Shown: in pieces, positions 44,223 to 60,008 of the stretch
Layout: each line of letters begins with the position of its first letter
How positions within the stretch are numbered: position 1 is the stretch's first letter
NCBI RefSeq assembly: GCF_037976825.1
Contig: NZ_CP150269.1
Location: forward strand, 4,663,501-4,727,500
Length of the DNA: 64,000 nt
Reading direction: 5' to 3'
From: Paenibacillus sp. FSL K6-1330
GTDB taxonomy: Bacteria; Bacillota; Bacilli; Paenibacillales; Paenibacillaceae
Made by a program: the position numbers and the translations under genes
Notes under the pieces: generated by a model
What the model saw: only the letters and a program-made list of their open reading frames with translations
Told to the model about the DNA's origin: nothing
Databases searched by the model: none

Positions 44223-45155
44223 TCATGTAACAGCTTCGCTAGTCATCTTCTTTAATGTCTTGTTAATCCAGATCGCAGCCGTCGCGCCTTCCCCCATCGC
44301 CACGGTGGTTAATTCGGAATGGACGCCCAGGTCACCGGCCGCCCAGAGTAATTCGACACTCGTCATTTTGGACCTTGGATCGGTCTTGACATGACGATTG
44401 TGCTCCAGCTCTGCCCCCAGTTGCTCGGCCAATTCGGAATAGATCATATTCCCGCCAAAAGATATGAACCCCCGCTCCGCGGGCACGATGCTCCCATCCT
44501 CAAGCATGACGGCTGATAGGATGCCGCCCTCCTCACGAATTTCTGACACCTTTTTCTCTATATACGGAATCCCGAGCTCCGCCAATTGGGACATATGCTC
44601 GGAAGAAGCTGGCTCCCCCTCATGATTGATGTAGATGATATCCTTGGTCCGCTCCGATAGCAGCACGGCCATACTGGCACCGGGATCACCCGATCCCATC
44701 ACGACGGTCTTTCGATCCTGAATTTCATAACCATCGCAATCGGGGCATACAAAAACGGATGTGCCCAGCGTGGGCATCAGGCCTGGCAGCTTGGGAAAGC
44801 GGTCCATCACGCCTGTTGCGAGCAGCAAGGTTTTGGCCCTGTACTGAACTCCATCTTTACCGGTTAACACAAAATATTGAGCTTCATCACGCCCCGCCTT
44901 CCGGATATCATCAGCAGCAAACTTTACATCGACAGATTCCGCCTGCTGACGTCCGCGTCGCCTGAGCTCTTCACCAGGGACCCCATCCGGCCATCCGAGG
45001 ATGTTGCGGTAGCTCTTGCATATGGTGGACCGCCCCATTCCCCGGTCGATCACCAGGACATTGTAGGCAGAATACCGCCCCAGCTGTATAGCCGCCTGCA
45101 GACCTGCAATTCCGCCGCCGATGATAATGCAATCTTTCACTTCGGTATCCGACAT
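44223..45155 (-). CDS. Thioredoxin-reductase-like FAD/NAD(P) oxidoreductase
   Basis: 310 residues. FAD-binding IIGGGIAGLQAA (about 11-22), the redox pair CPDC (Cys137, Cys140), a second nucleotide site VVMGSGDPGASM, and the terminal AAGDLG. Same layout as thioredoxin reductase, but the GSGDPG and CPDC forms differ from housekeeping TrxB (GxGxxA and CATC), so it is a paralogue with another partner. No thioredoxin gene is close. Monocistronic. Confidence 0.88.
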   Translation of the reverse strand: MSDTEVKDCIIIGGGIAGLQAAIQLGRYSAYNVLVIDRGMGRSTICKSYRNILGWPDGVPGEELRRRGRQQAESVDVKFAADDIRKAGRDEAQYFVLTGKDGVQYRAKTLLLATGVMDRFPKLPGLMPTLGTSVFVCPDCDGYEIQDRKTVVMGSGDPGASMAVLLSERTKDIIYINHEGEPASSEHMSQLAELGIPYIEKKVSEIREEGGILSAVMLEDGSIVPAERGFISFGGNMIYSELAEQLGAELEHNRHVKTDPRSKMTSVELLWAAGDLGVHSELTTVAMGEGATAAIWINKTLKKMTSEAVT

Positions 45156-45285
45156 GTAGCTTTATCCACTCATTTCTATATCGAATTAAGAACTGGAACT
45201 CCTTGAATCAAAATATCCTTCAAGAAAAGAGGTACACCCTAAATATTTAACCAATCTGCCGTGATTTACTCCTGAAAAGTCAAAT

Positions 45286-45311
45286 AGACCCCGGTACAAA
45301 GGCCGAGGTCT
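45286..45311 (-). terminator. Terminator of chrA
   Basis: AGACCCCGG pairs with CCGAGGTCT with one mismatch; a short T-rich tract follows on the minus strand. Confidence 0.6.
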
Positions 45312-45322
45312 AAATCAATGAA

Positions 45323-46552
45323 TCACAGGAGTAGCTGTCCGGCTAATGCACCGGTGATTACAACCAGCCACGGAGGGCTCTTCCAGAACATCAGCATTCC
45401 GAACAGACCCGCTCCGATCACAAATTCAAGCGGACTATGAATGGAGGATGTCCATATCGGATGATACAAAGCGGCCAGCAGAATCCCGACCACTGCCGCA
45501 TTCATGCCTGTCAGCATGCCTTGCAGTTTAGGGTTTCTACGGATGCTGTTCCAGAACGGCATTGCCCCTACGATGAGCAGAAATCCAGGCAAAAAGATAG
45601 CGAGTGTAGCAACAATACCTCCAGGAATCCCCTGGATCAAGACCCCGAGGTAAGCGGCAAAAGTAAACAACGGACCGGGTACAGCCTGTGTCGCTCCGTA
45701 ACCCGTTAGGAAATCCTCTTTAGACATCCATCCGTTCAGCACCGTCTCACTCTCCAGCAGCGGGAGAACGACGTGCCCTCCGCCGAATACAAGCGATCCA
45801 GCTCGGTAGAAGCTGTCCACAATGGCTACCCAACCATTATCGGTCAGCCCTTTAAGGATCGGCAGACCCACTAATAATACTACAAACATGCCCAAACAAA
45901 AGAGTCCGGCTCTCCGTCCGATCGGCATCTTGATCTCGGGTGCAGCCTCCTCGTTTGCTTGACGCTTGAACAACCACAGTCCCGATATGCCGGCCAGCGC
46001 GATGACCGTCACTTGAGAAACGGGACTCTGCCACAGCAGAACGACTGCCATGGCTATTAACGCTATGGCCGACCGTATGGGACCTGAGGCCAGCTTTCCT
46101 GCCATCCCAAGTACCGCTTGCGCTACGATGGCCACTGCGACAATTTTCAGTCCTTGAATCCAACCTGCCGAGCCGGGATCGAAAGTTTGCATCAAATAGG
46201 CGAAGATCATGAGCATGAGCACGGATGGTAACGTGAAGCCGAGCCAGGCGACGATACCGCCCCATAATCCCGCTCGCATCATCCCAACACCAATACCTAC
46301 TTGGCTGCTAGCCGGTCCGGGAAGAAATTGGGCGAGGGCCACCAGATCCGCATAGCTTTTTTCGTCAAGCCATTGTTTGCGCCGCACATAAGTCTGGTGG
46401 AAGTATCCAAGATGTGCGATCGGTCCGCCAAATGAAGTGAGTCCCAACTGTAGAGCGGTCCACCAGGTTTCGCCGAGGGCACGCCACCTGCCAGAGGGCT
46501 GCCTATTGCCGACTTGAGCTTGTACTTGTTCTTTCTCTGTCTCCGGATTCAA
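45323..46552 (-). CDS. chrA: Chromate transporter family protein (ChrA)
   Basis: 409 residues made of two homologous halves with about ten membrane helices. Half 1 starts LGLTSFGGPIAHLGYFH and contains LAQFLPGPASSQVGI; half 2 has FGGGHVVLPLLE and YGATQAVPGPLF. These FGGP/FGGGH and PGP motifs define the CHR family, which exports chromate in some bacteria. The true substrate is not shown by sequence. The N-terminus is a short soluble tail. Confidence 0.92.
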   Translation of the reverse strand: MNPETEKEQVQAQVGNRQPSGRWRALGETWWTALQLGLTSFGGPIAHLGYFHQTYVRRKQWLDEKSYADLVALAQFLPGPASSQVGIGVGMMRAGLWGGIVAWLGFTLPSVLMLMIFAYLMQTFDPGSAGWIQGLKIVAVAIVAQAVLGMAGKLASGPIRSAIALIAMAVVLLWQSPVSQVTVIALAGISGLWLFKRQANEEAAPEIKMPIGRRAGLFCLGMFVVLLVGLPILKGLTDNGWVAIVDSFYRAGSLVFGGGHVVLPLLESETVLNGWMSKEDFLTGYGATQAVPGPLFTFAAYLGVLIQGIPGGIVATLAIFLPGFLLIVGAMPFWNSIRRNPKLQGMLTGMNAAVVGILLAALYHPIWTSSIHSPLEFVIGAGLFGMLMFWKSPPWLVVITGALAGQLLL

Positions 46553-46961
46553 AATCCATCGCTCCCCATATGCTTGATTAATGAAATGAAACGGTTAATT
46601 CGTGCATCCCAAGGTATAAAGAACATCATCAAATTTCAGATTATAACAAATACTCATTATCAATCTACCCATTTATGTAAACGCTATGTAAAATCTATAT
46701 AGGATCTTGAATGCTACGATCTGAAGATCGGCACATAACCATGTAAAAAGAGCGCCCCACTTGACCACATTGTCCAAGGATCGCTCTTTTCTATTTACTT
46801 ATTTCCCTTGCTGTTTGATCCATTATTGAGAGCACCATGTTGTGACCTCTGATATCACTCATTATGATTTTTGTTAGCTATTGGAGACCAGTCTATACAG
46901 CAGGGATGTTTGATGAATATGCTCTTTATACCTGGGATTCAACAAGAGGGGGGGGATTTCA
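46553..46961. other. Divergent intergenic region with an orphan hairpin
   Basis: Lies between chrA (minus) and the YheC/D gene (plus). AAAAGAGCG (46746-46754) pairs with CGCTCTTTT (46782-46790), a terminator-like stem that follows no gene on either strand. The rest is AT-rich promoter DNA. A very short transcript could end there; no ORF supports it. Confidence 0.45.
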
Positions 46962-47699
46962 ATGACAATTGGAAAAATGAAGGATCAGTGGGGAATGTTA
47001 CAGAATCATATCTTGCGTCCCCATTTGCCTGAAACTCGATGGATGACAGGTTCAAGGATCTTACGGATGCTGAAAACATATTCATCCGTCTTCATAAAAC
47101 CCAATCTCGGAAGTGGCGGCAACGGAATCATCCGTGTCAATGAATTGAGTAGGGGATATGAAGTTCGCTGCGGCCCACGTCGGAAGATTGTTGGAGTTCA
47201 CTCTGTCTTAAAAGCAATTGATTCATTTCGGAATTCAAAGCGTCGGTATTTGGTGCAGAAAGGCCTGCGAATGGCGGAGTACCATGGGGAAATCTTTGAT
47301 ATCCGTGTATACCTGCAGAAGCCAGAGGACAAATGGATCATTTCGGGTATGGTCGCCCGTGTAGCTGCACCTCATAAATTTGTGACCAACTATCATCAAG
47401 GAGGGCATGCAGAACCATTGCAAGAGGTTCTCTTAAAGCTCTTTCAGAATAACCAAACCAAAGTGGACGCCTGTTCTCGTAAAATAAAACAACTATCCAT
47501 TACCATTGCCGAGACGGTTAATAAATGGAAATCGACTCGTGAATTTGGGGTTGATCTTGCCATAGACAAGAATGGCTACATTTGGATCCTTGAAGCTAAT
47601 CCATATCCCGGCCATAGGTTGTTTACTCAACTCTCCGATAACACAATGTACAGAACCATTATAGAAAACAAACGGCGCATGGCAAAAAAAATACCATGA
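46962..47699 (+). CDS. YheC/YheD-type ATP-grasp spore-coat-associated protein
   Basis: 245 residues. The ATP-grasp core runs from KPNLGSGGNGIIRVN through YLVQKGLRMAEYHGEIFDIR to FGVDLAIDKNGYIWILEANPYPG, whose Glu-Ala-Asn is the usual metal site. Shorter than YheC/YheD of Bacillus (about 360 to 450 residues) because the N-terminal domain is missing. Ligand unknown. GAGGGGGG lies before the ATG. A small ORF overlaps its stop. Confidence 0.85.
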   Translation: MTIGKMKDQWGMLQNHILRPHLPETRWMTGSRILRMLKTYSSVFIKPNLGSGGNGIIRVNELSRGYEVRCGPRRKIVGVHSVLKAIDSFRNSKRRYLVQKGLRMAEYHGEIFDIRVYLQKPEDKWIISGMVARVAAPHKFVTNYHQGGHAEPLQEVLLKLFQNNQTKVDACSRKIKQLSITIAETVNKWKSTREFGVDLAIDKNGYIWILEANPYPGHRLFTQLSDNTMYRTIIENKRRMAKKIP

Positions 47700-47869
47700 T
47701 TGCAGAAGCTTTTATTACAGATGGGGAATGTTGGAAGGAATCCCCAACCTCCCAGGAGTTGAAGAGCTTCCTGAACGACAGCAGTGGTGGATTCCGCGCT
47801 TCCGCTTTCAGCAAGCCCTATTTACTCACAGGTATTCATCGTTGTCATGATGACCTCTATCGGTATTAA
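47696..47869 (+). CDS. Possible small CDS (57 residues), coupled to the ATP-grasp gene
   Basis: ATGA overlap with the stop of the ATP-grasp gene starts MIAEAFITDGECWKESPTSQ and runs to TGIHRCHDDLYRY, ending in TAA at 47867-47869, which overlaps the last codons of the convergent MFS gene by 4 bp. The 4-bp stop/start overlap argues for coupled translation. No family seen, and the ribosome box is not strong. Confidence 0.4.
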   Translation: MIAEAFITDGECWKESPTSQELKSFLNDSSGGFRASAFSKPYLLTGIHRCHDDLYRY

Positions 47870-49095
47870 GCCTCAGGCTTCGCCTCTTTCGGTACGGAGA
47901 GATAACCTGGTTTCGCTGCACCAAAGCCGAAGATGAACAACACCACAACAATGGCAGACAAAACCGCCAGGGGCACCTTCCACCCTCCTGTCGCATCATG
48001 CAGGAACCCGATCAGCATCGGACCGACGGCAGCCAATAAATAACCCAGTGACTGAGCCATTCCAGATAACGCGGCAGCTTCTTGAGCCGTTTTGGTACGC
48101 AGGGTGAAGAACATCAGGGATAAACTGAAATTGGCCCCGCCTGAAATACCTACCAGCATCACCCATAGCAGATTCAAGGAAGACATGCCGGAAAATAAGC
48201 CTGCATATCCGGTCAGCATGGATAATGCAGAGATCGTCACCAGCAAACGCTGATTGGGATTCCGGCCAGCCAGAACAGGAATAATGAAAGAAAACGGCAA
48301 GCTGACAAATTGGAGAATCGAGAGCATCCATCCCGCCGCACTATAATCCATGCCTTGGCTTCTCAGAATCTCGGGCAGCCATGAGACGTTCACGTAGAAC
48401 GTAAACGATTGAAGTCCCATAAATAAAGTAATGTACCAAGCAAGCGGTGACCTCAACACACTCTGTTGTTTGGTAGAAGTCGAACTGACCTCAGCTGTTT
48501 TTCCGGAACTGCGGCGCTGGATGATCCACACGATCAGAGCTAAGACGGACAATGAACCCCAAATGAGCAGGGACCCTTGCCAACCAAGCCCTGCTTGGGT
48601 AGCCAGCGGAATGCTAATCCCGGATGCGATCGCGGCGAGCAGATTCATCGAGGCAGAGTACGTGCCCGTCATCAATCCGATATGCCGCGGGAAATCCCGC
48701 TTGACCAGACTTGGAAGCAGCACGTTCCCTACGGCTATGGCCATTCCAAGAAATGCGGTACCTATTAACAGTGTATACGGTGATGATATCGAGCGTATGC
48801 CGATTCCGAATGTCAGCACCACCATACTCAGCAAAAGGGTATTCTCCAGTCCCCATTTTTTGGCCATGGCTGGTGCCATCGGCGATAATAGAGCAAAAGC
48901 CAACAGCGGCAGCGTCGTCAGCATGCCCGCCAATGTACTCGAAATTCCTATATCCTCTCGAATGATCCCGATCAGCGGACCTACCGAAGTAATCGCCGCT
49001 CTCAAGTTGATAGCAATAAGGATGATACCTGCAAAAATCATCCATGTGCGCCCTGCGGAATTTGTGTTTTGATCTATTGATGTTCTTGATGTCAT
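47866..49095 (-). CDS. MFS transporter, CynX/NimT family
   Basis: 409 residues, about 12 helices. IAINLRAAITSVGPLIGIIR and the later GLMTGTYSASMNLLAA are typical of the CynX/NimT (cyanate/nitroimidazole) group, whose substrates are mixed. AAGGAG lies 8 bases before the ATG at 49095. A perfect 7-bp inverted repeat lies 36-55 bp upstream. Confidence 0.88.
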   Translation of the reverse strand: MTSRTSIDQNTNSAGRTWMIFAGIILIAINLRAAITSVGPLIGIIREDIGISSTLAGMLTTLPLLAFALLSPMAPAMAKKWGLENTLLLSMVVLTFGIGIRSISSPYTLLIGTAFLGMAIAVGNVLLPSLVKRDFPRHIGLMTGTYSASMNLLAAIASGISIPLATQAGLGWQGSLLIWGSLSVLALIVWIIQRRSSGKTAEVSSTSTKQQSVLRSPLAWYITLFMGLQSFTFYVNVSWLPEILRSQGMDYSAAGWMLSILQFVSLPFSFIIPVLAGRNPNQRLLVTISALSMLTGYAGLFSGMSSLNLLWVMLVGISGGANFSLSLMFFTLRTKTAQEAAALSGMAQSLGYLLAAVGPMLIGFLHDATGGWKVPLAVLSAIVVVLFIFGFGAAKPGYLSVPKEAKPEA

Positions 49096-49130
49096 GACAT
49101 GGACTCCTTACTTTCATGCGATATGTAAAA

Positions 49131-49150
49131 ATAAACTTATCCGAGTTTAT
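49131..49150 (-). promoter_or_regulatory. Inverted repeat upstream of the CynX-like gene
   Basis: ATAAACT-TATCCG-AGTTTAT is a perfect 7-bp inverted repeat with a 6-bp spacer, 36 bp before the MFS start. A repressor site is likely; no regulator gene is adjacent. A second stem, ATAGCCTC/GAGGCTAT, lies at 49172-49189. Confidence 0.5.
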
Positions 49151-49262
49151 CACAAACCCGGGCATTAGGCCATAGCCTCGGGAGGCTATCATGGCAGCTT
49201 TAAGGTCTAGTGTGTCGCCTATTCAGCGTTGTACATTAGCCTGTAGACGCACAGATAGAGCC

Positions 49263-50621
49263 CTACACAAGCGGGCTCCAAGCATACACGGATAATTTTT
49301 GGACTTCGCGAATCAATTCATTATACCGTTTTTGTATTTCCTCGGATGCGTACTGACGGAACTGCTCGAAGATTCCCATGCACCGCAGCATCCCGTTATC
49401 GCTTTTGATTCTTATCGAGTACGCGAGGCTGTCCAGGATGTGGGATAACCCGCGATCATACTGTTTAGCATTCAAATAGTATATCCCTAACTCGGCGAGG
49501 AGTCGGGTGTATTGGTTTAATGTGACGTGCACATTAATGTTGCTGATTTGGTTTTTCTGAGGTTTGTAATCGAGATACTTTTTAAAACGTTCAAGTATAT
49601 AATCTACATTGAGCCGGTGTCGATTTGCTGCGAGTATAATATGACATAGTGCCACAAAGATTTCATCTTCTCTTGATTCAATGTATTTTACGTAATCAGA
49701 CAAAACATTATAGTCTCCGGCCAATATAGAGTGCAAGTATCGGTTGGCTACAGCCCATTCATTAAACTGCTTTATGACTCTACATTCATCTTCGGTAGGG
49801 TCAATAATCCAATCAGGACTTTCGTAAATGCCCGTATAGGACAAAGCTTGTTCATAATCTCCACGTTCACTATAACTATTTTCTCGAGCTAAGTATGAAT
49901 ACAAGATATAAAAAACTAATGGATGATTACCTGAGTACTCAATTTTTTGATTCTGATATCTAGTCATGGCTTTAGATCCCATTTTTACAGCTAAATCATC
50001 CACTTTATCCCACTGACCCAATGAACCGCTGACATTTATTAACTCTACATATGCTGCAAGTTGATACTCTTCATCCAACCGTTCAATGTACGGCTCAAAT
50101 AACACAACGGCCTGCCAATTAGATTCTTGATTGTCACTTAATCTTTGTAAAAAAAGACGGTAGTGACAAAGGGCGAGCCTTTCAGAGTGTTGGAACTTTT
50201 CACTTTCAGCAACACATTCATACAAAGCTGCCGCTGCGTTGTATTTTTTTTCGTTATAAAATGATTCTGCCAATTCAAATAACATCGGTGCGTAAGTAAT
50301 GTTTTCCATTGCCATTCGTGCAGCTAAATGTAAACAATCCAACTCTGCACAGCGTTCAAGAAAAGCACCTAGTCGCCTCCAGTCAGGGGTAGCATGAAAT
50401 ATACATTCAAAAATATATTTATCGTAAAAGTGACCTTCCTTAAATCCAATACAGGAGGTGATCTGATCCAGTTGATTCATTGACATTGGACGGTTTCCAT
50501 TAAGTATGCCGCTTAAAGTTCCACTGTTTATTTTTGATATTTTCGCAAACTGATTTATTGTCAAACCATGTTCTTGCAAATATCTAGCTATTTCTCCGCG
50601 AATCGTGGCTGTCGTCTCCAA
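49263..50621 (-). CDS. RRNPP-type peptide receptor/regulator, copy 1 (orphan)
   Basis: 452 residues. An N-terminal XRE-type helix-turn-helix (about 5-58: LTINQFAKISKINSGTLSGI then LNGNRP) is followed by a long all-helical region to the C-terminus, with TPR-like pairs such as AAALYECVAESEKFQHSERL and ELGIYYLNAKQYDRGLSHIL. The layout is that of peptide-sensing regulators (PlcR, NprR, Rap/AimR). The start is TTG 50621 after GGGGGG. It is 41 bp behind copy 2 without its own promoter, so the two form one transcript. No peptide gene was found after it. Confidence 0.85.
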   Translation of the reverse strand: METTATIRGEIARYLQEHGLTINQFAKISKINSGTLSGILNGNRPMSMNQLDQITSCIGFKEGHFYDKYIFECIFHATPDWRRLGAFLERCAELDCLHLAARMAMENITYAPMLFELAESFYNEKKYNAAAALYECVAESEKFQHSERLALCHYRLFLQRLSDNQESNWQAVVLFEPYIERLDEEYQLAAYVELINVSGSLGQWDKVDDLAVKMGSKAMTRYQNQKIEYSGNHPLVFYILYSYLARENSYSERGDYEQALSYTGIYESPDWIIDPTEDECRVIKQFNEWAVANRYLHSILAGDYNVLSDYVKYIESREDEIFVALCHIILAANRHRLNVDYILERFKKYLDYKPQKNQISNINVHVTLNQYTRLLAELGIYYLNAKQYDRGLSHILDSLAYSIRIKSDNGMLRCMGIFEQFRQYASEEIQKRYNELIREVQKLSVYAWSPLV

Positions 50622-50662
50622 GTAACAACCCCCCAGAAAAATCTATTAAATAGCATTTTCCT

Positions 50663-52042
50663 TTACACTTGAGGGCTCCAAGCGTACACGGATAATTTTT
50701 GAACATCGTTAATCAAATCATTGTATCGTTTCTGTATTTCTTTGGAAGAATACTGACGAAACTGCTCAAAGATCCCCATGCACCGCAGCATCCCTCTGTC
50801 GCTTTTGATTCTTATCGAATACTCCAAACTATCTATAATAAATGTTAAACCACGATCAAATTTTTTGGAGTTCAAATAGTATATCCCTAGCTCGGTAAGG
50901 AGACGAGCATATCGGTTCATCGTAACTTGTTCACTTATCTTGCCGAGACGGCTTCGTTGTGGTTTATATGCCTGATACTCTTTAAACTTCTCCAGAATAT
51001 GATCTATGTTAAAGCGATGTCGATTTGCTGCTACGACAATATTGCATAAGGCAGTAAAAATCTCATCTGTTCTGGCTTCAACATAGTTTACATATTCAGA
51101 TATAACGTCAAAGTCTCCAGACATTAACCTGTATAAGTATCGATTCGCTTTTGCCCATTCTTTAAACTGATTGATTATTATTTTTTCCTGATCGGAAGGT
51201 GCCTTTATCCAATCCGGGTCTTCATACATAGACAGATAACTTAATGCTTCCTCAAAATTTCCTGCTTCACGACGGACATTCGCTTGTATTAGAAATGAAT
51301 AGAGTATGTAAAAGATTATGGGCTTTTCCTGTCCATCACTCATAATCGCGATTTTACAATTGTTCTTATATTGTAATCTAGCTTTATGACCCATTTTTCT
51401 AGCCAGCACTTCAATTGTGTCCCACCGCTGAAAAGAAATATTCACATTAATAAGCTTTCTATAAGCGTCTAATTGATATTCATCATCTAATCTATCAATA
51501 TAATGCTCAAAAGATACTGCCAGCTTTAGATTAGCTTCCACATTGTCACTTAACTCCATTACAAAAAGCCGATATTGGCATAATGCAAGCCTTTCAGAAT
51601 GCTGGAACTTTTCACTTTCAGCCACGCATTCATACAATAATGCGGCCGCTTTATACTTCTCCCTGTTGAAGAATTCCTCCGCCATTTCAAAAAGCATTGG
51701 CGCGTAATTGATGTTCTCCATCGTCATTCGTGCTGCTTTATGCAAACAATCCAGTTTATCCAGCTCCGCACATCGCCCCAGAAAAGGTCCAAGCCTCCGC
51801 CAGTCGGGAGTAGTATGGAAAATACTCTCCGTTATATAAAGTCCATAGAATTGTCCCTCTTCCAGCCCCATGCCTTCGGTAATCCGGTCTAACTGGTGCA
51901 TAGACATGGGACGATTACCATTTATGATATTACTAAGTGTTCCGCTATTGATACCCGATATCTTTGCAAACTGGTTAATCGTCATACGATGATTCTGCAA
52001 ATATTTAACTATCTCTCCGCGAATCGTGGCTGTCGTCTCCAA
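50663..52042 (-). CDS. RRNPP-type peptide receptor/regulator, copy 2 (orphan)
   Basis: 459 residues, same HTH + TPR-like architecture as copies 1 and 3. It shares almost identical first 12 residues and the C-terminus KLSVYAWSP with copy 1, and start-region DNA is nearly identical, so copies 1 and 2 look recently duplicated. The start is TTG 52042 after GGGGGTG. Its own SigA promoter lies at 52098-52126. No peptide precursor follows it; copy 1 does instead. The orphan state suggests it may answer the peptide of the third unit or one encoded elsewhere. Confidence 0.85.
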   Translation of the reverse strand: METTATIRGEIVKYLQNHRMTINQFAKISGINSGTLSNIINGNRPMSMHQLDRITEGMGLEEGQFYGLYITESIFHTTPDWRRLGPFLGRCAELDKLDCLHKAARMTMENINYAPMLFEMAEEFFNREKYKAAALLYECVAESEKFQHSERLALCQYRLFVMELSDNVEANLKLAVSFEHYIDRLDDEYQLDAYRKLINVNISFQRWDTIEVLARKMGHKARLQYKNNCKIAIMSDGQEKPIIFYILYSFLIQANVRREAGNFEEALSYLSMYEDPDWIKAPSDQEKIIINQFKEWAKANRYLYRLMSGDFDVISEYVNYVEARTDEIFTALCNIVVAANRHRFNIDHILEKFKEYQAYKPQRSRLGKISEQVTMNRYARLLTELGIYYLNSKKFDRGLTFIIDSLEYSIRIKSDRGMLRCMGIFEQFRQYSSKEIQKRYNDLINDVQKLSVYAWSPQV

Positions 52043-52066
52043 GTAACAACACCCCCAGATGGAAAA

Positions 52067-52126
52067 CCAAATATTAGTATTATAAATATTTAATTACATG
52101 CTATTATTTTACATTCAGAAGGTCAA
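52067..52126 (-). promoter_or_regulatory. Promoter and conserved leader element of receptor copies 2+1
   Basis: Minus strand: TTGACC (52121-52126), 17-bp spacer, TAGCAT (52098-52103). ATACTAATATTTGG (52067-52080) in the leader is identical to the element ahead of copy 3, at nearly the same distance from the -10 box. Confidence 0.65.
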
Positions 52127-52142
52127 TAATTTAATTAATTAT

Positions 52143-52182
52143 TCAAATAAAGATGGCTCCACTATGTCTGGAACCATCTTTT
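52143..52182 (-). terminator. Terminator of the peptide-precursor gene
   Basis: AAGATGGCTCC pairs with GGAACCATCTT (one mismatch), T-rich on both sides, 25 bp past the stop of the peptide gene. Confidence 0.7.
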
Positions 52183-52206
52183 GATTAAATCTATGAAGAA
52201 AATAAA

Positions 52207-52377
52207 TTAGGTCGTTCCCGCACCATGAGACGAAGACGTCATATTTGTTCCTGCCCCATGACTATAAACAGCTGCTTTGGGAGTAGTAATAGGATCAGCA
52301 CTTATAATCCCTGACGGAACTTCGAACAGCAAAACAAGACTACAGATTGTAAATAGATACGCAAGTTTTTTCTTCAT
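52207..52377 (-). CDS. Secreted signalling-peptide precursor with SHGAGT repeats
   Basis: 56 codons, too short for most gene finders. MKKKLAYLFTICSLVLLFEV is a signal peptide (cleavage likely near IISA/DP, residue 27). The exported part carries SHGAGT twice: residues 39-44 (after VY) and 50-55 (after SS), with one final Thr. GAGAGGTG lies 11 bases before the ATG. It sits directly downstream of receptor copy 3 on the same strand and has its own promoter and terminator. Peptide-receptor pairs of this form (Aip/Alo, P. polymyxa) are recalled, not checked. Probable mature signal: SHGAGT(T) or close to it. Confidence 0.8.
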   Translation of the reverse strand: MKKKLAYLFTICSLVLLFEVPSGIISADPITTPKAAVYSHGAGTNMTSSSHGAGTT

Positions 52378-52466
52378 ATTATTTTTTGCACCTCTCTAAC
52401 CAATATTTTCTTGAAAGTTGTTCTTCATTGATGAAACATAGTGAAATTTCCCATATTCCCCCTTAC

Positions 52467-52532
52467 AGTATCATAAATCGATCTACTTGACATTACCAAA
52501 AAAAGAAAACTTTCCATGAACAAAGTATCATA
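52467..52532 (-). promoter_or_regulatory. Peptide-gene promoter with direct repeats
   Basis: Minus strand: TTGGTA (52494-52499), 18-bp spacer, TATGAT (52470-52475). AGTATCATA occurs at 52467-52475 (covering the -10 box) and at 52524-52532; the second copy belongs to the palindrome GTATC-ATAGC-GATAC (52525-52539). These are candidate receptor-binding sites. Confidence 0.5.
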
Positions 52533-52543
52533 GCGATACAATA

Positions 52544-53932
52544 TCATCGGTAACCAATAGATGTTCCTATTTTTTTATTATTTAAAATCTGTACATCTTT
52601 CACTAAATATTTATACTTTAGTTGAAGATCGTTTGTGGAATAAGGACGAAATTGTTCGAAAACCCCCATACATCTAAGCATCCCCTTATCACTATTTATC
52701 TTAATCGAGTTTTCTAAACTATCTAAAATAAACTCAAGTCCACTCTCATAGCGATTAGTGTTCAGATAATAAATACCAAGTTCAGCGAGTAATCTTGTAT
52801 ATCGATCTGCTGTAACCTGCTGAATTATCTTTCCAATATGATTTCGTTGTTCCTTATGAACAATATATTTTTTAAACTTATCCAGAATATAGTCCACATC
52901 TAACTGATATCGATTAGCTGCAATCATGATGCTACAAAGCCCTAAAAATATCTCATCTTCTCTATCAGTAATAAAATCTACATAATCAACTAGTAAATCA
53001 TCATCTCCTGCCATTAACTTGTATAGATATTTGTTTGCCTCAGCCCACTCTTTAAACTGCTCAATGACTCTGATTTCCTCATAATCAGGATCATCAATCC
53101 AGGTAGGATCTTCATATAAGGTTACAAATTCTAATGCCTTTTCATAATCACCACACTCATAACAAACAGTTGCTCGAATTAAATGCGAATATAGAATATA
53201 AAATATAAGTGGTTTATTTCGTCCTTCTTTCTTTTTGAAAATTTTACCAATATGTTGGTATTGAATTGTCGCTTTAGTACCCATTTTTAAAGCTATTGCA
53301 TCAACCTTATCCCAACGATGCAAAGATAGATTTAAATTTACTAATTCTTTAAGCGCATCCAACTGGTACATCTCATCCAACCGATCCACGTATGGCTCAA
53401 AATAAACAGCTGCCTGCAAATTTGCATCCTGATCATCACCCAATTCCAACGTAAACAACCGATACTGACAAAGGGCTAATCTTTCCGAATGCTGAAATCG
53501 TTCACTCTCAGCCACGCTTTTATAGATCAAAACAGCCGCCTCATGTTTTCCCTCTTTGAAAAAAAGCTCAGCCGTTTCAAAGAGTAAGGGTGAATAAGAG
53601 ATATTATCCATCGTCATCCGGACAGCCTTGTCCAGACAATTCAGCTTCCCAAGTTCCGCGCATCGGTGAAGAAACGGACCTAGCCGACGCCAATCCGGCG
53701 TAGCATGAAATATGCATTCATCGATATACAGCTCGTAAAAACAACCCTCTTCCAGACCCATACCTAACGTAATCCGGTCCAATTGCTGCATGGAAATCGG
53801 GCGGTTGCCATTCAGGATGTTGCTGAGTGTGCCGCTATTGACCCCCGATATCTCAGCAAACCGATTAATCGTCATTTCGTTCTTATGTAGAAACTCTTCC
53901 ATTTGTTCGCGAATCGTGGCTGTCATTTCCAA
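52544..53932 (-). CDS. RRNPP-type peptide receptor/regulator, copy 3 (paired with peptide)
   Basis: 462 residues. An XRE-type HTH (MTINRFAEISGVNSGTLSNI then LNGNRP) precedes a TPR-like all-helical domain with the same landmarks as copies 1 and 2 (YKSVAESERFQHSERLALCQ, ELGIYYLNTNRYESGLEFIL). It is the most divergent copy at its C-terminus and the most AT-rich. The start is TTG 53932 after GGGTGGTG. The 56-codon precursor follows it, so it is the likely cognate receptor, binding re-imported peptide in the cytosol and changing DNA binding. Confidence 0.88.
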   Translation of the reverse strand: MEMTATIREQMEEFLHKNEMTINRFAEISGVNSGTLSNILNGNRPISMQQLDRITLGMGLEEGCFYELYIDECIFHATPDWRRLGPFLHRCAELGKLNCLDKAVRMTMDNISYSPLLFETAELFFKEGKHEAAVLIYKSVAESERFQHSERLALCQYRLFTLELGDDQDANLQAAVYFEPYVDRLDEMYQLDALKELVNLNLSLHRWDKVDAIALKMGTKATIQYQHIGKIFKKKEGRNKPLIFYILYSHLIRATVCYECGDYEKALEFVTLYEDPTWIDDPDYEEIRVIEQFKEWAEANKYLYKLMAGDDDLLVDYVDFITDREDEIFLGLCSIMIAANRYQLDVDYILDKFKKYIVHKEQRNHIGKIIQQVTADRYTRLLAELGIYYLNTNRYESGLEFILDSLENSIKINSDKGMLRCMGVFEQFRPYSTNDLQLKYKYLVKDVQILNNKKIGTSIGYR

Positions 53933-53959
53933 GCTAACACCACCCTTTAGGATCAGAAC

Positions 53960-54018
53960 CCAAATATTAGTATATTTCTCTATACAGTAATCATATTGAT
54001 TAATATTCCAGCGGTCAA
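53960..54018 (-). promoter_or_regulatory. Promoter and conserved leader element of receptor copy 3
   Basis: Minus strand: TTGACC (54013-54018), 17-bp spacer, TATGAT (53990-53995). ATACTAATATTTGG (53960-53973) repeats the leader element of copy 2. Confidence 0.7.
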
Positions 54019-54130
54019 TACTTATTTACGTCATTTTTTTACAAAAAATAACCAATACAATTTAAAAATGCCAAATTCAACACTTTTCTTTATGATTTAT
54101 ATATCGTCAGTTTGATCACTACGATGAGAA

Positions 54131-54160
54131 AAAGCGCTCCGAAATTTTCGGAAGCGCTTT
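54131..54160. terminator. Palindromic terminator
   Basis: AAAGCGCTCCGAAA pairs with the second half of the same palindrome, TTTCGGAAGCGCTTT. First of two stems between the VanZ/ABC operon and the receptor cluster. Confidence 0.75.
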
Positions 54161-54172
54161 GTTGGACAACAA

Positions 54173-54207
54173 TAAGGGCCCTGACTTCAACCAAGTCAGG
54201 GCCCTTA
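54173..54207. terminator. Palindromic terminator of the VanZ/ABC operon
   Basis: TAAGGGCCCTGACTT (54173-54187) pairs perfectly with AAGTCAGGGCCCTTA (54193-54207). It lies 16 bp after the end of the last VanZ gene. Confidence 0.8.
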
Positions 54208-54223
54208 CTTACTATATCCTCTC

Positions 54224-55657
54224 CTAGCTCCTTCTTGCCTGAATTAATGTGAACCAATTCGAATCCCCATTAAATACACCGTATACTGTGTATACAGGCT
54301 GATAGAAGTTTTTCGTGTCATATATGAACGATAGCTCAATTCCTGTTATATCCAGTTGGTCACCCTTTTTAATAACGAGTTGATCATCCGTTAATATTGC
54401 ATTTCTTTTGATTTGTGGAAATTCACCATTTTTGATACGATCATACACCTCTGCAGGAGACAATATATCTACTTCCTTAATAAATTGATTCTCTTGGAGC
54501 CCATTATTTATCGAATAGATACTGCCATCTTGTTTAAGACCGAGTAACAGCTCGCCAGTCCAATAACTCTCGTGTAGACCCGCTTTATCCGGGAGGGACC
54601 ATTGAAATTCCCCGTCCTCCAATGCTGTAAAATCAGCGTCTTGAGGGAGTAGGCCAAGATCGGCCATTATGGTTTTGGCCTTCTGTGATAGCAGTTCTTG
54701 GTCATTGAATGAAGTTCGCTCCGGTGTATCATTGTTCTCGGTTAACGACCAGTTTCCCTCTTCGGATTGATAGAATGTATATGGTGTTCCTGATTTATCT
54801 TCCAATAGAACCTCTCGATCGCCATCCCAATCCTTAACCTTCAACTCAGATAATCCTAACTTCTGCTGCAGCAGGGCTTCTACTCCATCCGGCTGAGTGA
54901 TTTTCTTGTAGACGGGGGCCACTGCAGGTGCCGAGCTTAACTGAAGGGATGTTGTTACATGAACATCTTTCATATTCCATTTGGTAAACGAGTTTATGGC
55001 CAGGTTTCCGAACTCCTGCTGGATGTAGACGATATTCATGCCGACAAAAAGCAAACCCATTAGTAGGGGTATCACCAGGTTTCCCAGAAGACTTTTCATT
55101 CTGACTTTTTTGTTATGAACAATGGAAGCGGCAAGTCTGTATAACTGATATCCAAAAATACCACCGAGCGTGTTGTTCAAGATATCAGCAAGCTCAAACA
55201 GTCCTGCTCCTGAAAGCGTCTGATAGGTTTCAATAAAGAGCGTAGAACTTACAACGACAAGAAGAAGCCACTTGAATGCTTTAAATTTTCGGCTGATGAA
55301 AGGCAGCAATATTCCCATCGGGATAAACATGATGATATTAAATATACCGTTCTGAAGATCACGTAAGGAATATTTGTTCCATGCTTCAACATAATCGCTG
55401 AATGGATGGAGATTCATCTGCAAGAAATGAGAATTGCCGCGGCCCAACATCGTTAGCTCAAGTACAAATACAACATATCCGATGAACAAGGCGCCAAGAA
55501 AAAGCTTGTTCATTTGAATCCGTGGCTTTCCCTCTGATTTTTGTTTTCTATAATAAAGATAATAATATAACATGATTAGAACGAATTCGATCCCGATAAT
55601 TACGATGACCGGCAGCATTAAAAAACGTAGATTCGTATAGATTGCATCGATCCCCAA
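54224..55657 (-). CDS. VanZ-family protein with a long C-terminal domain
   Basis: 477 residues. The VanZ domain (about 1-175) has membrane helices with the landmarks MNLHPFSDYVEAWN, FNIIMFIPMGILLPF and FELADILNNTLGGIFGYQLY. A single helix (about 190-215) follows, then about 250 residues of extracytoplasmic domain with two repeated-looking halves that resemble PepSY/YycI-like folds (inference). The start is TTG 55657 after a G-run. VanZ proteins give low-level teicoplanin or peptide resistance. Last gene of the operon. Confidence 0.85.
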   Translation of the reverse strand: MGIDAIYTNLRFLMLPVIVIIGIEFVLIMLYYYLYYRKQKSEGKPRIQMNKLFLGALFIGYVVFVLELTMLGRGNSHFLQMNLHPFSDYVEAWNKYSLRDLQNGIFNIIMFIPMGILLPFISRKFKAFKWLLLVVVSSTLFIETYQTLSGAGLFELADILNNTLGGIFGYQLYRLAASIVHNKKVRMKSLLGNLVIPLLMGLLFVGMNIVYIQQEFGNLAINSFTKWNMKDVHVTTSLQLSSAPAVAPVYKKITQPDGVEALLQQKLGLSELKVKDWDGDREVLLEDKSGTPYTFYQSEEGNWSLTENNDTPERTSFNDQELLSQKAKTIMADLGLLPQDADFTALEDGEFQWSLPDKAGLHESYWTGELLLGLKQDGSIYSINNGLQENQFIKEVDILSPAEVYDRIKNGEFPQIKRNAILTDDQLVIKKGDQLDITGIELSFIYDTKNFYQPVYTVYGVFNGDSNWFTLIQARRS

Positions 55658-55740
55658 GACGAGGCCCCCCCCTTATGACTTTATTATAATGATGGTTGAC
55701 ACTGTCTTTCCTTGCAGCTTCAAGTCAGAGCCGGTCACTT

Positions 55741-58332
55741 TTATATACTCTCCTGCTTTAACGCGTCGATGATGTCTTCCTTTTTTACTTTCGCGCTGGA
55801 ATATAGCATGGCAGAACCGACAATGACAAATACGGCGGCAATGACAGACAGAATACTCATCCAGGGAAGGACGAATCCGTAGCTAAATTTGTTCGCAAAG
55901 GCCATATAGATCAAATACATCACGACGAAGCTGATAGGAAGTCCGAACAGCAGTGATTTGGCTCCATAAAAAACACTTTCGTAGTTCATCATTTTCGCAA
56001 AGCCTTTTGGCGTCATTCCAACGGATTTCAGCATCGCAAATTCCCGCTTTCGAAGAGCGATGCTCGTTGAGATTGTATTAAAAATATTCGCAATCGAAAT
56101 CACTGAAATTAATACGATAAAGCCATAAGTAAAGACGGACATCAATAGTATCATCTGTTCTTCCTGTTTTCTGGATTGGTACACATTGTACACATACAGA
56201 TTAGGCTCTTTCATTTCTTCGATTTCCTGCTGCGTTTTCAGCGGGTCCGCACTTTTCAGATAGAGAAAGGTTTGAACGAACTCCCCGCTCTTATCGTCTG
56301 CCAGTTGATTTAGGACTCGTTCCGAGACGACGATATTTAACCCGCCTGTTCCGATTGAGTTCATCCCCATCGGAGATCGATCCGTCAACGCCGCAATGTA
56401 CACTTCACTTACATCCGTCACTTTTTCCGTTTCCTCATCGAACGTAGTCAAATCGAGACTTTGCCCAACATTCGCATGAATAGCCTTCGTATGGACATAT
56501 TTTCCCGTATCCATATCTTTATAATCGATGGTATCGATCACGATGGCGGAGAGATGTTCCGGATCCGTCAGTAGCTCGTAATCTGCGCCGACTGCTTTGG
56601 CATAAGCCCGCAGGTTCGAATCGTTTAATGCATTGATTTTAATATCGTAAGGATATTTTCCGTCCTTCAGCATACTCTTATCCTTCTTGACCGCCTCCTG
56701 CAATTCATCGGCGATGGACGCTTCCTCGATCCAAGCGTTCCTGTACAACTCATGAATCACGCTGTATTCCGATACATCCGAAAGGGATGCAATGGACTGA
56801 ACCAACCGATCGTCTATTCTTTTTTCATTGCCGTAAGATAGTTCTATATCATAGTTGACGCCTTCCTGCGACATGGCCAAGGATTGTTTCAGATTACCGG
56901 TAAAAAATGATACCGTTAAAAACAAAGCGATGCTGATCACGAGCGAAAATACGGTAGCATGGTATCTCCGCTTGTTCCTTTTTAAGTTCTTCAATCCGAT
57001 CTCCGCTTCGATTCCGAAGAGCTTTCGAATCCATTTCGGCGTTTCCACGCTTTTGCCCGAAAGCTTCACATCGGTAGTTTGACGAATCGCATCCATGGCT
57101 GAAATCCGGGATGCTTTGACGGCCGGGAGATACGTCGAAATGAAGATCGTCAACATGGAGACAGCGCAGGCAATCAAAATCGATAACGGCGTGACGATCA
57201 CCGTTAGCTTTTCAGTAATTCCTAAAGCCCCTTGAATGATAGCGTTAATGAACTGAAAGGTAATACCGATCCCGGCAAGACCGCATAGGATTCCAACCGG
57301 AATGCTGATCAAGCCAATAATGACACCCTCAAAAAACACCGAATTTCTCTTCTGCCTTTTCGTAGCCCCCACGCTTGCAAGCATCCCTAAATGGCGGGAA
57401 CGTTCCGAGACGGAAATTGCAAAAGCATTATAGATCAGCGAAACTGAGCCGATCATAATGACCGCCATCAGGATCACCGATAAGGAGACCATCGTGCTGT
57501 ACGAGGCTTCGCTTTTGGAAACGCCATAATAATGAAGCAAATCGTGATGATATTGGACCGTTTCGATCTGGTTGTTCTCTGCCAGGTTTTCTGCATGTGC
57601 GAACAAGGACTGATTGACTTTTTGCAAGACTACCGCCGCATTGACTCGATCGTTTGCCCCGATGATGTTTTCATCGACATAGCTAATGGTCGTATACCCC
57701 GGGGCCCACGCCGGTTCCCATACGGGAGGTTTGATGAAGCCTACGATCGTGTAATCCCTTGTCATCGTATTATGCAGCGTTTCGTTCTTTTTGTTATCTA
57801 CGATGCGCAGCGATTCGGTTTGGCCCAGCGGTTGATCATTCCCTTCCTCGAATCGTTCGCCGACGCGCAGAGTGAGACGATCCCCGATTTCATATTTCAC
57901 CTTGGCGTTTGTCGCAGCGGCTTCAGAAATCACAACTTCCTTGTCGGTTTGCGGCAGACGCCCCTTGCTCACTTCAATCGGAAATTGCGCTAAACCTTGT
58001 GCATCATAAGCCTTGATGAACCAATATGGCTTATTTGGATTTTGTCCCCCTTCTAATGGGGCATAACCAAGATCGTTTGTGATCGCAAGGGTCTTGGTTG
58101 CGTCATCGTTTTTTATCGCTGCAAGCTGTTCCTTGTTTACATCTTGATATAGGACATGCCATTCCCCTTCATCTGCGATGGTTTGCCTTTTCATTAAATC
58201 CAAGTAAGAAAAACCAAGCGTTGCAACAGCCGTCACCATGGCAACTGACATGATGACACCTATGATGGTTACAAGCGTTCTTCTCTTGTTTTCCCGCAAA
58301 TGTCTGACGGTGAGTTTATTGACAATATTCAA
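55741..58332 (-). CDS. FtsX-type ABC transporter permease (large)
   Basis: 863 residues with two FtsX domains. An N-terminal helix (RRTLVTIIGVIMSVAMVTAV) leads to a large outer domain; helices near 285-405 include SVSERSRHLGMLASVGATKR; a second helix starts near 455; the second outer domain runs to about 735; and the last three helices (about 745-855) include LRKREFAMLKSVGMTPKGF. Permeases of this type export or remove lipoproteins, lantibiotics and antimicrobial peptides. The TTG start overlaps the ATPase stop by 4 bp, so the pair is translationally coupled. Confidence 0.9.
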   Translation of the reverse strand: MNIVNKLTVRHLRENKRRTLVTIIGVIMSVAMVTAVATLGFSYLDLMKRQTIADEGEWHVLYQDVNKEQLAAIKNDDATKTLAITNDLGYAPLEGGQNPNKPYWFIKAYDAQGLAQFPIEVSKGRLPQTDKEVVISEAAATNAKVKYEIGDRLTLRVGERFEEGNDQPLGQTESLRIVDNKKNETLHNTMTRDYTIVGFIKPPVWEPAWAPGYTTISYVDENIIGANDRVNAAVVLQKVNQSLFAHAENLAENNQIETVQYHHDLLHYYGVSKSEASYSTMVSLSVILMAVIMIGSVSLIYNAFAISVSERSRHLGMLASVGATKRQKRNSVFFEGVIIGLISIPVGILCGLAGIGITFQFINAIIQGALGITEKLTVIVTPLSILIACAVSMLTIFISTYLPAVKASRISAMDAIRQTTDVKLSGKSVETPKWIRKLFGIEAEIGLKNLKRNKRRYHATVFSLVISIALFLTVSFFTGNLKQSLAMSQEGVNYDIELSYGNEKRIDDRLVQSIASLSDVSEYSVIHELYRNAWIEEASIADELQEAVKKDKSMLKDGKYPYDIKINALNDSNLRAYAKAVGADYELLTDPEHLSAIVIDTIDYKDMDTGKYVHTKAIHANVGQSLDLTTFDEETEKVTDVSEVYIAALTDRSPMGMNSIGTGGLNIVVSERVLNQLADDKSGEFVQTFLYLKSADPLKTQQEIEEMKEPNLYVYNVYQSRKQEEQMILLMSVFTYGFIVLISVISIANIFNTISTSIALRKREFAMLKSVGMTPKGFAKMMNYESVFYGAKSLLFGLPISFVVMYLIYMAFANKFSYGFVLPWMSILSVIAAVFVIVGSAMLYSSAKVKKEDIIDALKQESI

Positions 58333-59018
58333 GGGCGAATCACCTCGTCTTTGGCAATCCTTCCGTCTTCAATCGAAATGACTCTGTCAGCTTGCAAAGC
58401 GATTCGTTCGTCATGCGTGATCACGATCAATGTCTGGTGATAGGTTTTATTCAACATTTGCAATAAGTCGATGATCTCGCTGCTATTCTTGCTGTCCAGA
58501 TTCCCGGTCGGCTCGTCCGCCAGCATAATGGCAGGATTACTAATGAGTGCTCTGCCGATCGATACCCTTTGCTGCTGTCCGCCTGATAATTGATTAGGCA
58601 GATGGTTTAAGCGATGTTGCAGATTCAAAGTCTTCACGAGACCATCCAACTGCTGCTTATCTACCTTTTGGTTATCAAGCAAGAGCGGGAGCGTAATATT
58701 CTCTTCCACCGTCAAGACGGGAATCAGATTGAAAAACTGGTAGATCAGGCCGATTTGTCTGCGCCTGAAGATGGCCAGCTGTGTTTCGTCCAAGTTATAC
58801 ATGTCCGTATCCTCTACGAGGACTTTGCCGCTCGTCGGCAAATCCACACCGCCCAGCATATGCAGCAGCGTGGATTTCCCCGATCCTGACGGGCCAATGA
58901 TGGCGACAAATTCACCTTTTCGGACCGAAAAGGAAACATCGTCAAGCGCCTTTACCGCCGATTCGCCCTTTCCGTATATTTTAGACAGATGATCTATTTT
59001 TAAAATTTCCATTGTCAT
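58329..59018 (-). CDS. ABC transporter ATP-binding protein (LolD/MacB/BceA type)
   Basis: 229 residues. Walker [19 protein letters not shown]-loop YQFFNLIPVLTVEEN, signature LSGGQQQRVSIGRAL, Walker B IMLADEPTGNLDSKNS and H-loop VITHDE. The GPSGSGKST and ADEPTGNLD forms are those of MacB/BceA-type ATPases. It energises the overlapping permease. Confidence 0.95.
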   Translation of the reverse strand: MTMEILKIDHLSKIYGKGESAVKALDDVSFSVRKGEFVAIIGPSGSGKSTLLHMLGGVDLPTSGKVLVEDTDMYNLDETQLAIFRRRQIGLIYQFFNLIPVLTVEENITLPLLLDNQKVDKQQLDGLVKTLNLQHRLNHLPNQLSGGQQQRVSIGRALISNPAIMLADEPTGNLDSKNSSEIIDLLQMLNKTYHQTLIVITHDERIALQADRVISIEDGRIAKDEVIRP

Positions 59019-59036
59019 ATCTCCCTCCCTTCATGC

Positions 59037-59975
59037 TCAATTCCAGCTATATACCATCTCTTTATATCCAACATCCCACAGGGTTACATTTCCCTCAATG
59101 GTTATCGTAAGCTCATTGGCCTGAGGGAGATAAATGGAGCTCATATCCGGCTCATGGCGTCCGGCTTCTACAGATACAGTCAGTAACTCATGTCCATCGG
59201 CGGTAACCCTAATGCTGCCTCGAGAATCCTCCTGATCGGGAATTCCATAATTCAAAAAGAGGTACACCTCCTTCTTATTGCCTAACGTGTACCTGTACGT
59301 TTCCTTGTTTTTGCCTTCAATGCTGTACATATTATATTGGGGTTCCACGTCTTGACCGCCTATCTTAAGACGGTTCGGTTTCGTTCCCGTTGATGGATTG
59401 CCGTTACTGTCCTTCCATTCGTTTATCGCCACAAAGGGGCCCATCTCTTTGGTGAACACTTGATCAACCACCCCGAAGATGCCCCACACCCCGAGCATCA
59501 AAACAACGCTGGAAATACCCGCAGCAGCAATATTTCTCCAGATGTTTTTCGAGCGAAAGCCAAGTTTGTACGCCCCGAATCCGATGGCTGCGCCCGTTGA
59601 GTTCTGTATGACATCGTTCACGTCGAAGCTGCCGAGGAAAGTTAGCGCCTGAATCGTCTCCAGCAGAAGGATGGATAGGATGAACAATGTCATGAAGCGA
59701 ACAAAGCTAGTCCGATATAACAACGGAATCAATATGCCAAAAGGGATAAAGGCTGCGATGTTTCCGAAACCCACAAAATCCATCAATGTAGGATGTAGAA
59801 GATCTGATAGACTTGGCACCCTGAAAAAACTGTCAGGTAAAAACATAAAGGTGTACTCGGAGATTTGATCTACCTTACCTACTCTGCCGAAAGCGAAAAA
59901 CAAAAAATAAAGAATAAACAGGGTGTAGAATATCGTGATAGCAAAAATAATTTTACGTTGTTGTTTCAAATGCAT
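59037..59975 (-). CDS. VanZ-family protein, second copy
   Basis: About 312 residues from the ATG at 59975 with GGAGG 7 bases ahead. The VanZ helices carry DFVGFGNIAAFIPFGILIPL and FDVNDVIQNSTGAAIGFGAY. The C-terminal half after a further helix is a beta-rich extracytoplasmic part that differs from that of the other VanZ protein. First gene behind the induced promoter; it precedes the ABC ATPase by 18 bp. Two VanZ proteins flanking one ABC pair is unusual. Confidence 0.85.
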   Translation of the reverse strand: MHLKQQRKIIFAITIFYTLFILYFLFFAFGRVGKVDQISEYTFMFLPDSFFRVPSLSDLLHPTLMDFVGFGNIAAFIPFGILIPLLYRTSFVRFMTLFILSILLLETIQALTFLGSFDVNDVIQNSTGAAIGFGAYKLGFRSKNIWRNIAAAGISSVVLMLGVWGIFGVVDQVFTKEMGPFVAINEWKDSNGNPSTGTKPNRLKIGGQDVEPQYNMYSIEGKNKETYRYTLGNKKEVYLFLNYGIPDQEDSRGSIRVTADGHELLTVSVEAGRHEPDMSSIYLPQANELTITIEGNVTLWDVGYKEMVYSWN

Positions 59976-60008
59976 GGTCGTACCTCCATCGTTCATCTGT
60001 TGAATATC

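Follow-up and report, generated by a model that had tools for sequence, protein, structure and literature searches.

Introduction

It is an open question how quorum-sensing families gain new signals that are insulated from one another. The subject here is a locus of Paenibacillus sp. FSL K6-1330 in which a short ORF with a doubled hexapeptide motif lies next to a gene for a putative peptide receptor. The window analysed here is a stretch of 64,000 nucleotides (contig NZ_CP150269.1, positions 4,663,501 to 4,727,500 of the forward strand), of which positions 44000-60000 were examined. From the DNA letters alone, the original prediction had seen in this arrangement a secreted, re-imported signalling peptide with its RRNPP receptor.

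Alo is a quorum-sensing family of the Paenibacillaceae described by Voichek et al. in 2020, in which the signals are released from the C-terminus of the precursor. The mature peptide of AloP13 is SHGRGG, and the Alo13 system was demonstrated by means of a synthetic peptide and a reporter (PMC7425212). RRNPP/RRNPPA systems are defined by a TPR receptor of 250-500 aa that is adjacent to a secreted propeptide of 10-100 aa (PMC10075063). As detailed below, it is highly probable that the locus is an Alo-type RRNPP quorum-sensing pair, and that the sensing part of its receptor (aloR) and the precursor gene (aloP) are swapped as a pherotype cassette.

Results

The receptor array and its surroundings

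The features of the locus are listed in Table 1. On the minus strand, the order of transcription is receptor copy 3, a gap of 166 nt, aloP, a hairpin, receptor copy 2, receptor copy 1, and the gene of an MFS transporter.

Table 1. Features of the alo locus, given in window coordinates.
Feature	Position	Strand	Basis
aloR, receptor copy 3 (HTH and TPR, 462 aa)	52544..53932	-	ORF, domain matches, AlphaFold2
Constant receptor part, residues 1-180 (HTH, first helices)	53393..53932	-	Identity and dS
Promoter-like site of aloR copy 3, TTGACC-17-TATGAT	53990..54018	-	10/12 consensus
Box ATACTAATATTTGG of aloR copy 3 (upstream), candidate operator for AloR or leader element	53960..53973	-	
Putative variable pherotype cassette: C-terminal receptor part (from near residue 155-190), gap, aloP, terminator	52140..53470	-	Edges approximate
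Promoter-like site of aloP, TTGGTA-18-TATGAT	52470..52499	-	9/12 consensus; weak
aloP, 56-aa pheromone precursor	52207..52377	-	ORF and homologues
Signal-peptide-like region of AloP, residues 1-28	52294..52377	-	K-rich start, hydrophobic core
Pheromone copy 1, SHGAGT, residues 39-44	52246..52263	-	SHGSGT in P0001, P0002
Pheromone copy 2, SHGAGT, residues 50-55, then Thr and stop	52213..52230	-	Invariant in P0001, P0002
Likely aloP terminator, hairpin then T-rich stretch	52152..52178	-	Folding
Second perfect box, upstream of orphan copy 2	52067..52080	-	
Receptor copy 2, AloR paralogue without aloP	50663..52042	-	ORF
Receptor copy 1, AloR paralogue without aloP	49263..50621	-	ORF
CynX/NimT-type MFS transporter, candidate output gene, next past the receptor array	47866..49095	-	

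The predicted HTH and TPR receptor does adjoin the small ORF. The Pfam matches of copy 3 are just under the cut-offs (HTH_26, 21.6 versus 22 bits; TPR_2, 20.9 versus 27 bits), and the AlphaFold2 model is all-helical and confident (pLDDT 90.1, pTM 0.85). These sub-threshold matches and the model are consistent with the N-terminal HTH and C-terminal TPR parts of an AloR, and the lengths of receptor (462 aa) and propeptide (56 aa) lie within the RRNPP/RRNPPA ranges. A structure search with copy 3 retrieved TPR proteins generally, including NprR, Rap and AimR, and unrelated TPR proteins scored alike; as the scores of proteins such as LGN equalled those of NprR and Rap, a fold assignment on this basis was dropped. 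Searching the PDB by profile yielded 13 matches at E <= 1; most were short HTH proteins, and the best E was 0.012. None was clearly RRNPP, and the route through solved relatives was set aside.

The promoter-like site of copy 3 was found in all five copy-3 upstream regions that were aligned. Further upstream of the array, two genes for VanZ-like membrane proteins (54224-55657 and 59037-59996) flank an ABC transporter gene pair; the former was named by a Pfam VanZ match, the latter only by its sequence resemblance to the former.

The precursor AloP contains two copies of its signal motif

The sequence of AloP is MKKKLAYLFTICSLVLLFEVPSGIISADPITTPKAAVYSHGAGTNMTSSSHGAGTT. Its N-terminus is rich in lysine and is followed by a hydrophobic stretch with a hydropathy maximum of 2.77, which bears out the signal-peptide look ascribed to this 56-codon ORF. 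Both predicted SHGAGT copies are present; the second, said to form the very C-terminus, is in fact followed by one Thr. An exact repeat of a 6-mer occurred in only one of 100,000 shuffles of residues 28-56. At the DNA level, the copies differ in 5 of 18 bases, and all differences are synonymous, with no amino-acid change; this protein-silent outcome is expected in 0.03% of random 5-base changes.

The 56-aa AloP was used as query against about 5.8 billion proteins (E <= 1). Two proteins were found, P0001 (86% identical) and P0002 (80%), which are known as proteins only, without genomic context or receptors. Both consist of 56 aa and are doubled too, with SHGSGT followed by SHGAGT at the 11-residue period of the window AloP. 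Variable columns in residues 29-56 of the three sequences, the whole basis of this test, amount to 1 of 12 within the motifs and to 10 of 16 elsewhere (Fisher p = 0.005; pairwise 0.42 for the window and P0001, which is not significant, 0.024 and 0.0006). The doubling therefore looks to be under constraint.

SHGAGT thus occurs twice in one precursor, in a layout kept in two relatives, as in tandem-pheromone precursors. Among 75 distinct AloP-like precursors from loci among the matches listed, the window AloP is the only doubled one. A profile search with 12 AloPs gave 22 proteins; besides P0001 and P0002, all 20 have a single copy. The single motif of relatives aligns with pheromone copy 1; a greater age of copy 2 by virtue of its C-terminal position was therefore not adopted. 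The original prediction saw in the repeat a doubled peptide yield. This is one possible use; since two relatives carry SHGSGT plus SHGAGT, it is an equally good reading that the precursor yields two signals of slightly different sequence.

aloP is set apart from its receptor gene

The gap of 166 nt between receptor and aloP is unusual. Among the matches listed there are 71 distinct first AloP-like ORFs, 57 of which begin within the end of the receptor gene, with an overlap of exactly 37 nt in 47 cases; only seven, including the window aloP, start more than 100 nt past the receptor. The private promoter proposed for aloP is plausible but weaker than claimed: the gap is real, whereas the 9/12 site is not significant alone, because the region contains 26 promoter-like sites compared to 18.2 +/- 4.2 in shuffles. 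By eye, promoter-like sequence was seen at the aligned position in the three relatives aligned (G104, G077 and G078). Downstream of aloP, folding of positions 52140-52190 gives -20.5 kcal/mol (z -5.8), and similar sequence is present in the aligned G104 and G077. The hairpin is absent from the output of the sequence-signal scan that gave the aloP promoter site.

A 13-bp box is common to receptor copies 3 and 2

Across the 7.43-Mb genome, TACTAATATTTGG occurs without mismatch at exactly two sites, both at this receptor array and both located between the -10-like element and the start of the gene (copies 3 and 2). The box is perfect in nine of ten aligned upstream regions of copy 3 and of receptors at position 2. 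At loci among the matches listed, 18 of 69 AloR upstream regions contain it with 12 or 13 of 13 positions, among them the distant L035, L032 and L034 (receptor identity 35-40%), and 51 are without it. It is not present in the aloP gap. The box may be an operator of AloR or a leader element; in either role it would tie copy 2 to copy 3. With one mismatch allowed, it is rarer genome-wide than its reversed control (6 versus 14 sites), that is, not enriched, and the reading of a regulon from the box was dropped for this reason.

Receptor and precursor form an Alo-type pair

The comparison set consisted of 130 homologous Paenibacillus ORFs with AloP-like partners, which took the place of the named P. 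polymyxa AloR. It was drawn from the matches listed plus 60 further and 12 wider regions, a choice that shapes the counts; six of the 130 ORFs are partial, some represent one gene cut differently at the locus edges, and one was skipped because of its short downstream sequence. AloP-like ORFs had to start with ATG, to comprise 28-75 aa with a hydrophobic stretch and K/R near the start, and to contain HG, GGxG, GTG or GWG within the last 22 residues; the counts depend on this filter.

At the loci among the matches listed, an AloP-like ORF lies downstream of 82 of the 130 distinct AloR ORFs, and single-copy homologues of the small ORF thus follow related receptors, as a genuine signalling gene had been expected to do. 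Furthermore, the genome comparison that had been proposed for covarying gene pairs was positive. In a partial Mantel test of 60 pairs from across the genus (62 passed the filters, and two were dropped for repeated AloP), the distance between receptor C-parts correlated with pheromone distance given the N-part (r 0.385; none of 2000 permutations as high), a significance that may be overstated for related sequences. The N-part distance given the C-part adds nothing (-0.03, p 0.685). An HG core is common to all 60 AloPs used, but the set was selected for HG. As judged from the sequences, the receptor C-terminus co-diverges with the signal, and the predicted AloP-AloR pairing is well supported.

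The kind of system is already known, as the locus fits the Alo family. As in Alo13 of P. polymyxa, a short secreted-type precursor with an HGxG-type signal at the C-terminus (SHGRGG there, SHGAGT(T) here) comes after an HTH and TPR receptor, and orphan receptors are likewise present in this other member of the genus Paenibacillus (PMC7425212). The downstream ORF is short and has the hydrophobic N-terminus of an AloP. The printed cloning primer for AloR13 (PMC7425212) encodes MENATTI, which METTATI and MEMTATI of the receptors studied here resemble. The SHG peptide to which the original prediction pointed was apt, given the mature SHGRGG of AloP13 (PMC7425212); the name of the system was not, as it is Alo and not Aip. 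Compared to Alo13 (PMC7425212), the window locus differs by its doubled signal, by the distance of 166 nt to aloP, by the mosaic cassette and by the MFS transporter. In the Alo13-like subtype a spo0E-like gene lies directly downstream (PMC7425212), whereas the next genes in the window are two AloR paralogues and the MFS transporter. A spo0E-like output was rejected, as no such gene adjoins the array.

Receptor copy 3 is a mosaic

Relative to G104, which is labelled as the same species as the window genome, and to G077 and G100, the flanking genes have amino-acid identities of 88-98% and dS values of 0.12-0.46. The whole-protein identity of copy 3 is 77% to G104, 76% to G077 and 74% to G100. 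Per 60-aa window, identity to the three is 90-100% in residues 1-180 and 53-78% in residues 181-462. The corresponding dS values are 0.11-0.27 for residues 1-120, 0.46-1.72 for residues 121-180, and from 1.1 to saturated beyond; since dS is already raised in residues 121-180, the left edge of the cassette is not sharp. DNA identity in 60-nt windows falls at a point between about 53590 and about 53350 and recovers at a point between about 52210 and about 52030, varying by genome. BLAST homology returns at 52137/52110, just beyond aloP. The size of the putative cassette is about 1.3 kb.

The DNA-level test for mosaicism comprised six genomes. In the tree of the C-part, G104, G077 and G078 are separated from G000, G100 and G075; in the tree of the flanks, G077 groups with G100. 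AU tests exclude the flank tree for the C-part data (2e-50) and likewise the C-part tree for the flank data (2e-7). The conflict between the N-part and the flank tree is mild (0.048; reverse 0.010), and the cassette is therefore not the sole exchange. Among 18 receptor proteins, 15 N-parts are mutually 91-100% identical, and their C-part groups are 54-65% apart; for example, P0013 and P0021 have N-parts that are 100% and C-parts that are 55% identical. The other three have diverged N-parts (P0005, 83-87%; P0016 and P0018, 73-78% to the rest). Variability among the 18 proteins is highest near residues 221-240.

The signals encoded at the same locus differ accordingly: SHGAGT twice in the window, NHGVGT in G104, NHGIGTG in G077, NHGIGTT in G078, DHGVGS in G100, and HGFGSGGT in G075. 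As in a pherotype locus, signal and sensor are hypervariable as a block and the flanks are conserved. The mosaic structure of copy 3 and the conflict between C-part and flank trees are both plain from the sequences. Because of this mosaic structure, the mutual rejection of the trees, and the return of homology past aloP, the signal sensor and aloP look like one exchangeable pherotype cassette.

Two loci, L011 and L087, contain a second aloP with a repeat of the last 24-29 receptor codons upstream of it (396 columns at 77% and 408 columns at 90%, respectively). These repeats are apparent footprints of a duplication of receptor tail plus aloP, and thus intermediates. In L070 and L075, two AloP-like genes per receptor were seen without a duplicated receptor tail.

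The orphan receptors are conserved and turn over

The best matches of copy 2 are 94.8% (G104, dN/dS 0.14), 92.4% (G077) and 80.4% (G078) identical at the amino-acid level; relative to G104, its windows range from 85-98%, without a jump of the kind seen in copy 3. Copy 1 is 93.0% identical to its match in G077 (dN/dS 0.15) and has no close counterpart in G104 or G100, where the best matches reach 66% and 67%. It also gave a weak, sub-threshold match to an AimR model. Given dN/dS values of 0.12-0.15 across the close orphan pairs and the patchy occurrence of counterparts, the orphans are constrained yet turning over between strains. Broken or truncated receptors occur in the arrays of relatives (L128 about 6191-7568, L007 380-1195, G006:C1:5714456-5715799), which suggests decay and turnover of orphan receptors. 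An orphan of G104 that adjoins aloP (L117 8738-10117) is similar to copy 2 at first and diverged over the rest; as the match is confined to the first part, orphans may exchange sensing parts too.

Genes downstream of the array

The MFS gene has an MFS_1 match and scores 392.8 bits with the CynX model (cut-off 406). In all ten genomes compared, 91-167 nt separate it from the last receptor, which is upstream of it, and the chromosomal gene order is common to the window and the nine genomes with the MFS gene beside the array. In G006, the last receptor of the array contains an in-frame TAG. A palindrome-like stretch, ATAAACTCGGATAAGTTTAT, is located upstream of the MFS gene (49096-49262) and is nearly unchanged in six aligned genomes; it is a possible operator of the transporter. 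Further downstream, a chromate-efflux-type transporter gene in single fused form (45323-46552) shows conserved synteny.

Discussion

A working model of the locus is as follows. AloP would be exported and its signal peptide then removed. Proteases outside the cell would free one or two hexapeptide-like signals, namely SHGAGT and perhaps SHGAGTT from the C-terminal copy. After re-import, the peptides would attach to the TPR part of the receptor next to aloP, and binding would alter the action of the HTH at DNA, plausibly at the 13-bp box of copies 3 and 2. The output may lie in the receptor array, reached via the box, in the MFS transporter downstream of it, or in both. With recombination within the receptor gene on one side and shortly beyond aloP on the other, sensor and signal would be replaced jointly; promoter, DNA-binding part and neighbouring genes would stay during the exchange. 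Export, maturation, uptake and binding are modelled on Alo13; that both copies are used, that the box serves as operator, and what the output consists of are likewise inferences.

Could the same pair have evolved at the same locus without any exchange, solely because the C-terminal half and aloP diversify very fast under selection? Diversification is expected of pheromone receptors, and the peak of variability near residues 221-240 would suit it. However, synonymous divergence jumps along with amino-acid divergence, and C-part and flank trees reject each other; for these two reasons, fast selection without recombination was set aside. N and C identities are moreover decoupled in the 18 receptor proteins, copy 2 lacks such a jump to G104, and one cassette type occurs on the differing flank backgrounds of G104, G077 and G078, which leaves this explanation very improbable. 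It is scarcely credible that the small ORF is untranslated and its repeat due to chance. The ORF is known from sequence alone, but its homologues P0001 and P0002 keep the layout, single-copy homologues follow related receptors, and the copies differ silently only. Chance was set aside on account of the conserved homologues, the shuffles and the silent differences.

A cassette exchange leaves two further questions, which of the copies acts as signal and which receptor reads it. That only the C-terminal copy is a signal, pheromone copy 1 being a spacer or a decaying duplicate, is a real possibility, if short of an even chance: the signals of Voichek et al. come from the C-terminus (PMC7425212), and copy 2 is invariant in the three alleles where copy 1 has one change. 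Yet in copy 1 five of six residues and the exact spacing are unchanged, against 10 variable columns among the 16 others, and tandem Phr propeptides are reported to give several active pheromones (PMC11343458). It is unlikely that the orphan copies 1 and 2, as eavesdroppers or signal sharers, are the main readers instead of copy 3. Their conservation in G104 and G077 and the box upstream of both copy 2 and copy 3 are compatible with this role, and eavesdropper receptors have been proposed in RRNPPA (PMC9765709). However, the orphans are 92-95% identical to those of relatives with a quite different AloP, and they therefore cannot closely track a changing signal. We thus favour an adjacent pair of copy 3 and AloP that is exchanged as a cassette.

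Tandem propeptides are known in Rap-Phr, NprR, AimR and PlcR (PMC9765709, PMC11343458), where, as here, one precursor holds several identical or nearly identical pheromones. AloR is not among the seven subfamilies in Table 3 of PMC9765709; the doubled host system is here an Alo system. Intralocus duplication in Rap-Phr (PMC5199041) resembles the present case in that a duplicated signal is a possible promiscuous intermediate and orphan receptors occur. There, the reported route combines a duplicated signal gene with horizontal transfer of entire loci, and a search for recombination between Rap homologues had a negative result (PMC5199041). In contrast to this absence of Rap divergence by recombination, what chiefly stands out at the window locus is recombination within the receptor gene.

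The doubled AloP and the exchangeable cassette of sensor plus signal appear to be new, and the latter is the more interesting; the Alo pair itself is known. The ComQXPA and agr pherotype loci have membrane receptors and another signal chemistry. They too have a hypervariable signal-receptor block within conserved surroundings; the window receptor, unlike theirs, is an HTH-TPR protein of the cytoplasm whose coding sequence contains the break. AloR and AimR belong to one nine-TPR clan (PMC12700828), and compared to the AimR arbitrium receptors the window locus is chromosomal and bacterial, and no phage genes were noticed at positions 44000-60000. In the literature searched, which covered the main text of the Alo paper, neither a doubled AloP nor an exchange of Alo cassettes was described; 'two copies' and 'pherotype' are absent as words from that main text (PMC7425212).

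For the P. lautus group, we consider the chances evenly balanced that the Alo locus is a modular pherotype switch. Recombination in the TPR region would swap sensor and signal gene, and the HTH would stay constant, as would an operator common to this receptor and the resident orphans, such that strains change dialect and keep their regulon; the two-copy precursor is possibly a promiscuous intermediate from which a new dialect could arise. The two-copy precursor offers a defined case for the question of dose versus bilingual signalling. If the cassette reading is true, an HTH-type RRNPP receptor shifts its specificity by a swap of the block of sensor and signal and keeps its DNA-binding part and promoter, and neighbouring strains would have different chemical dialects.
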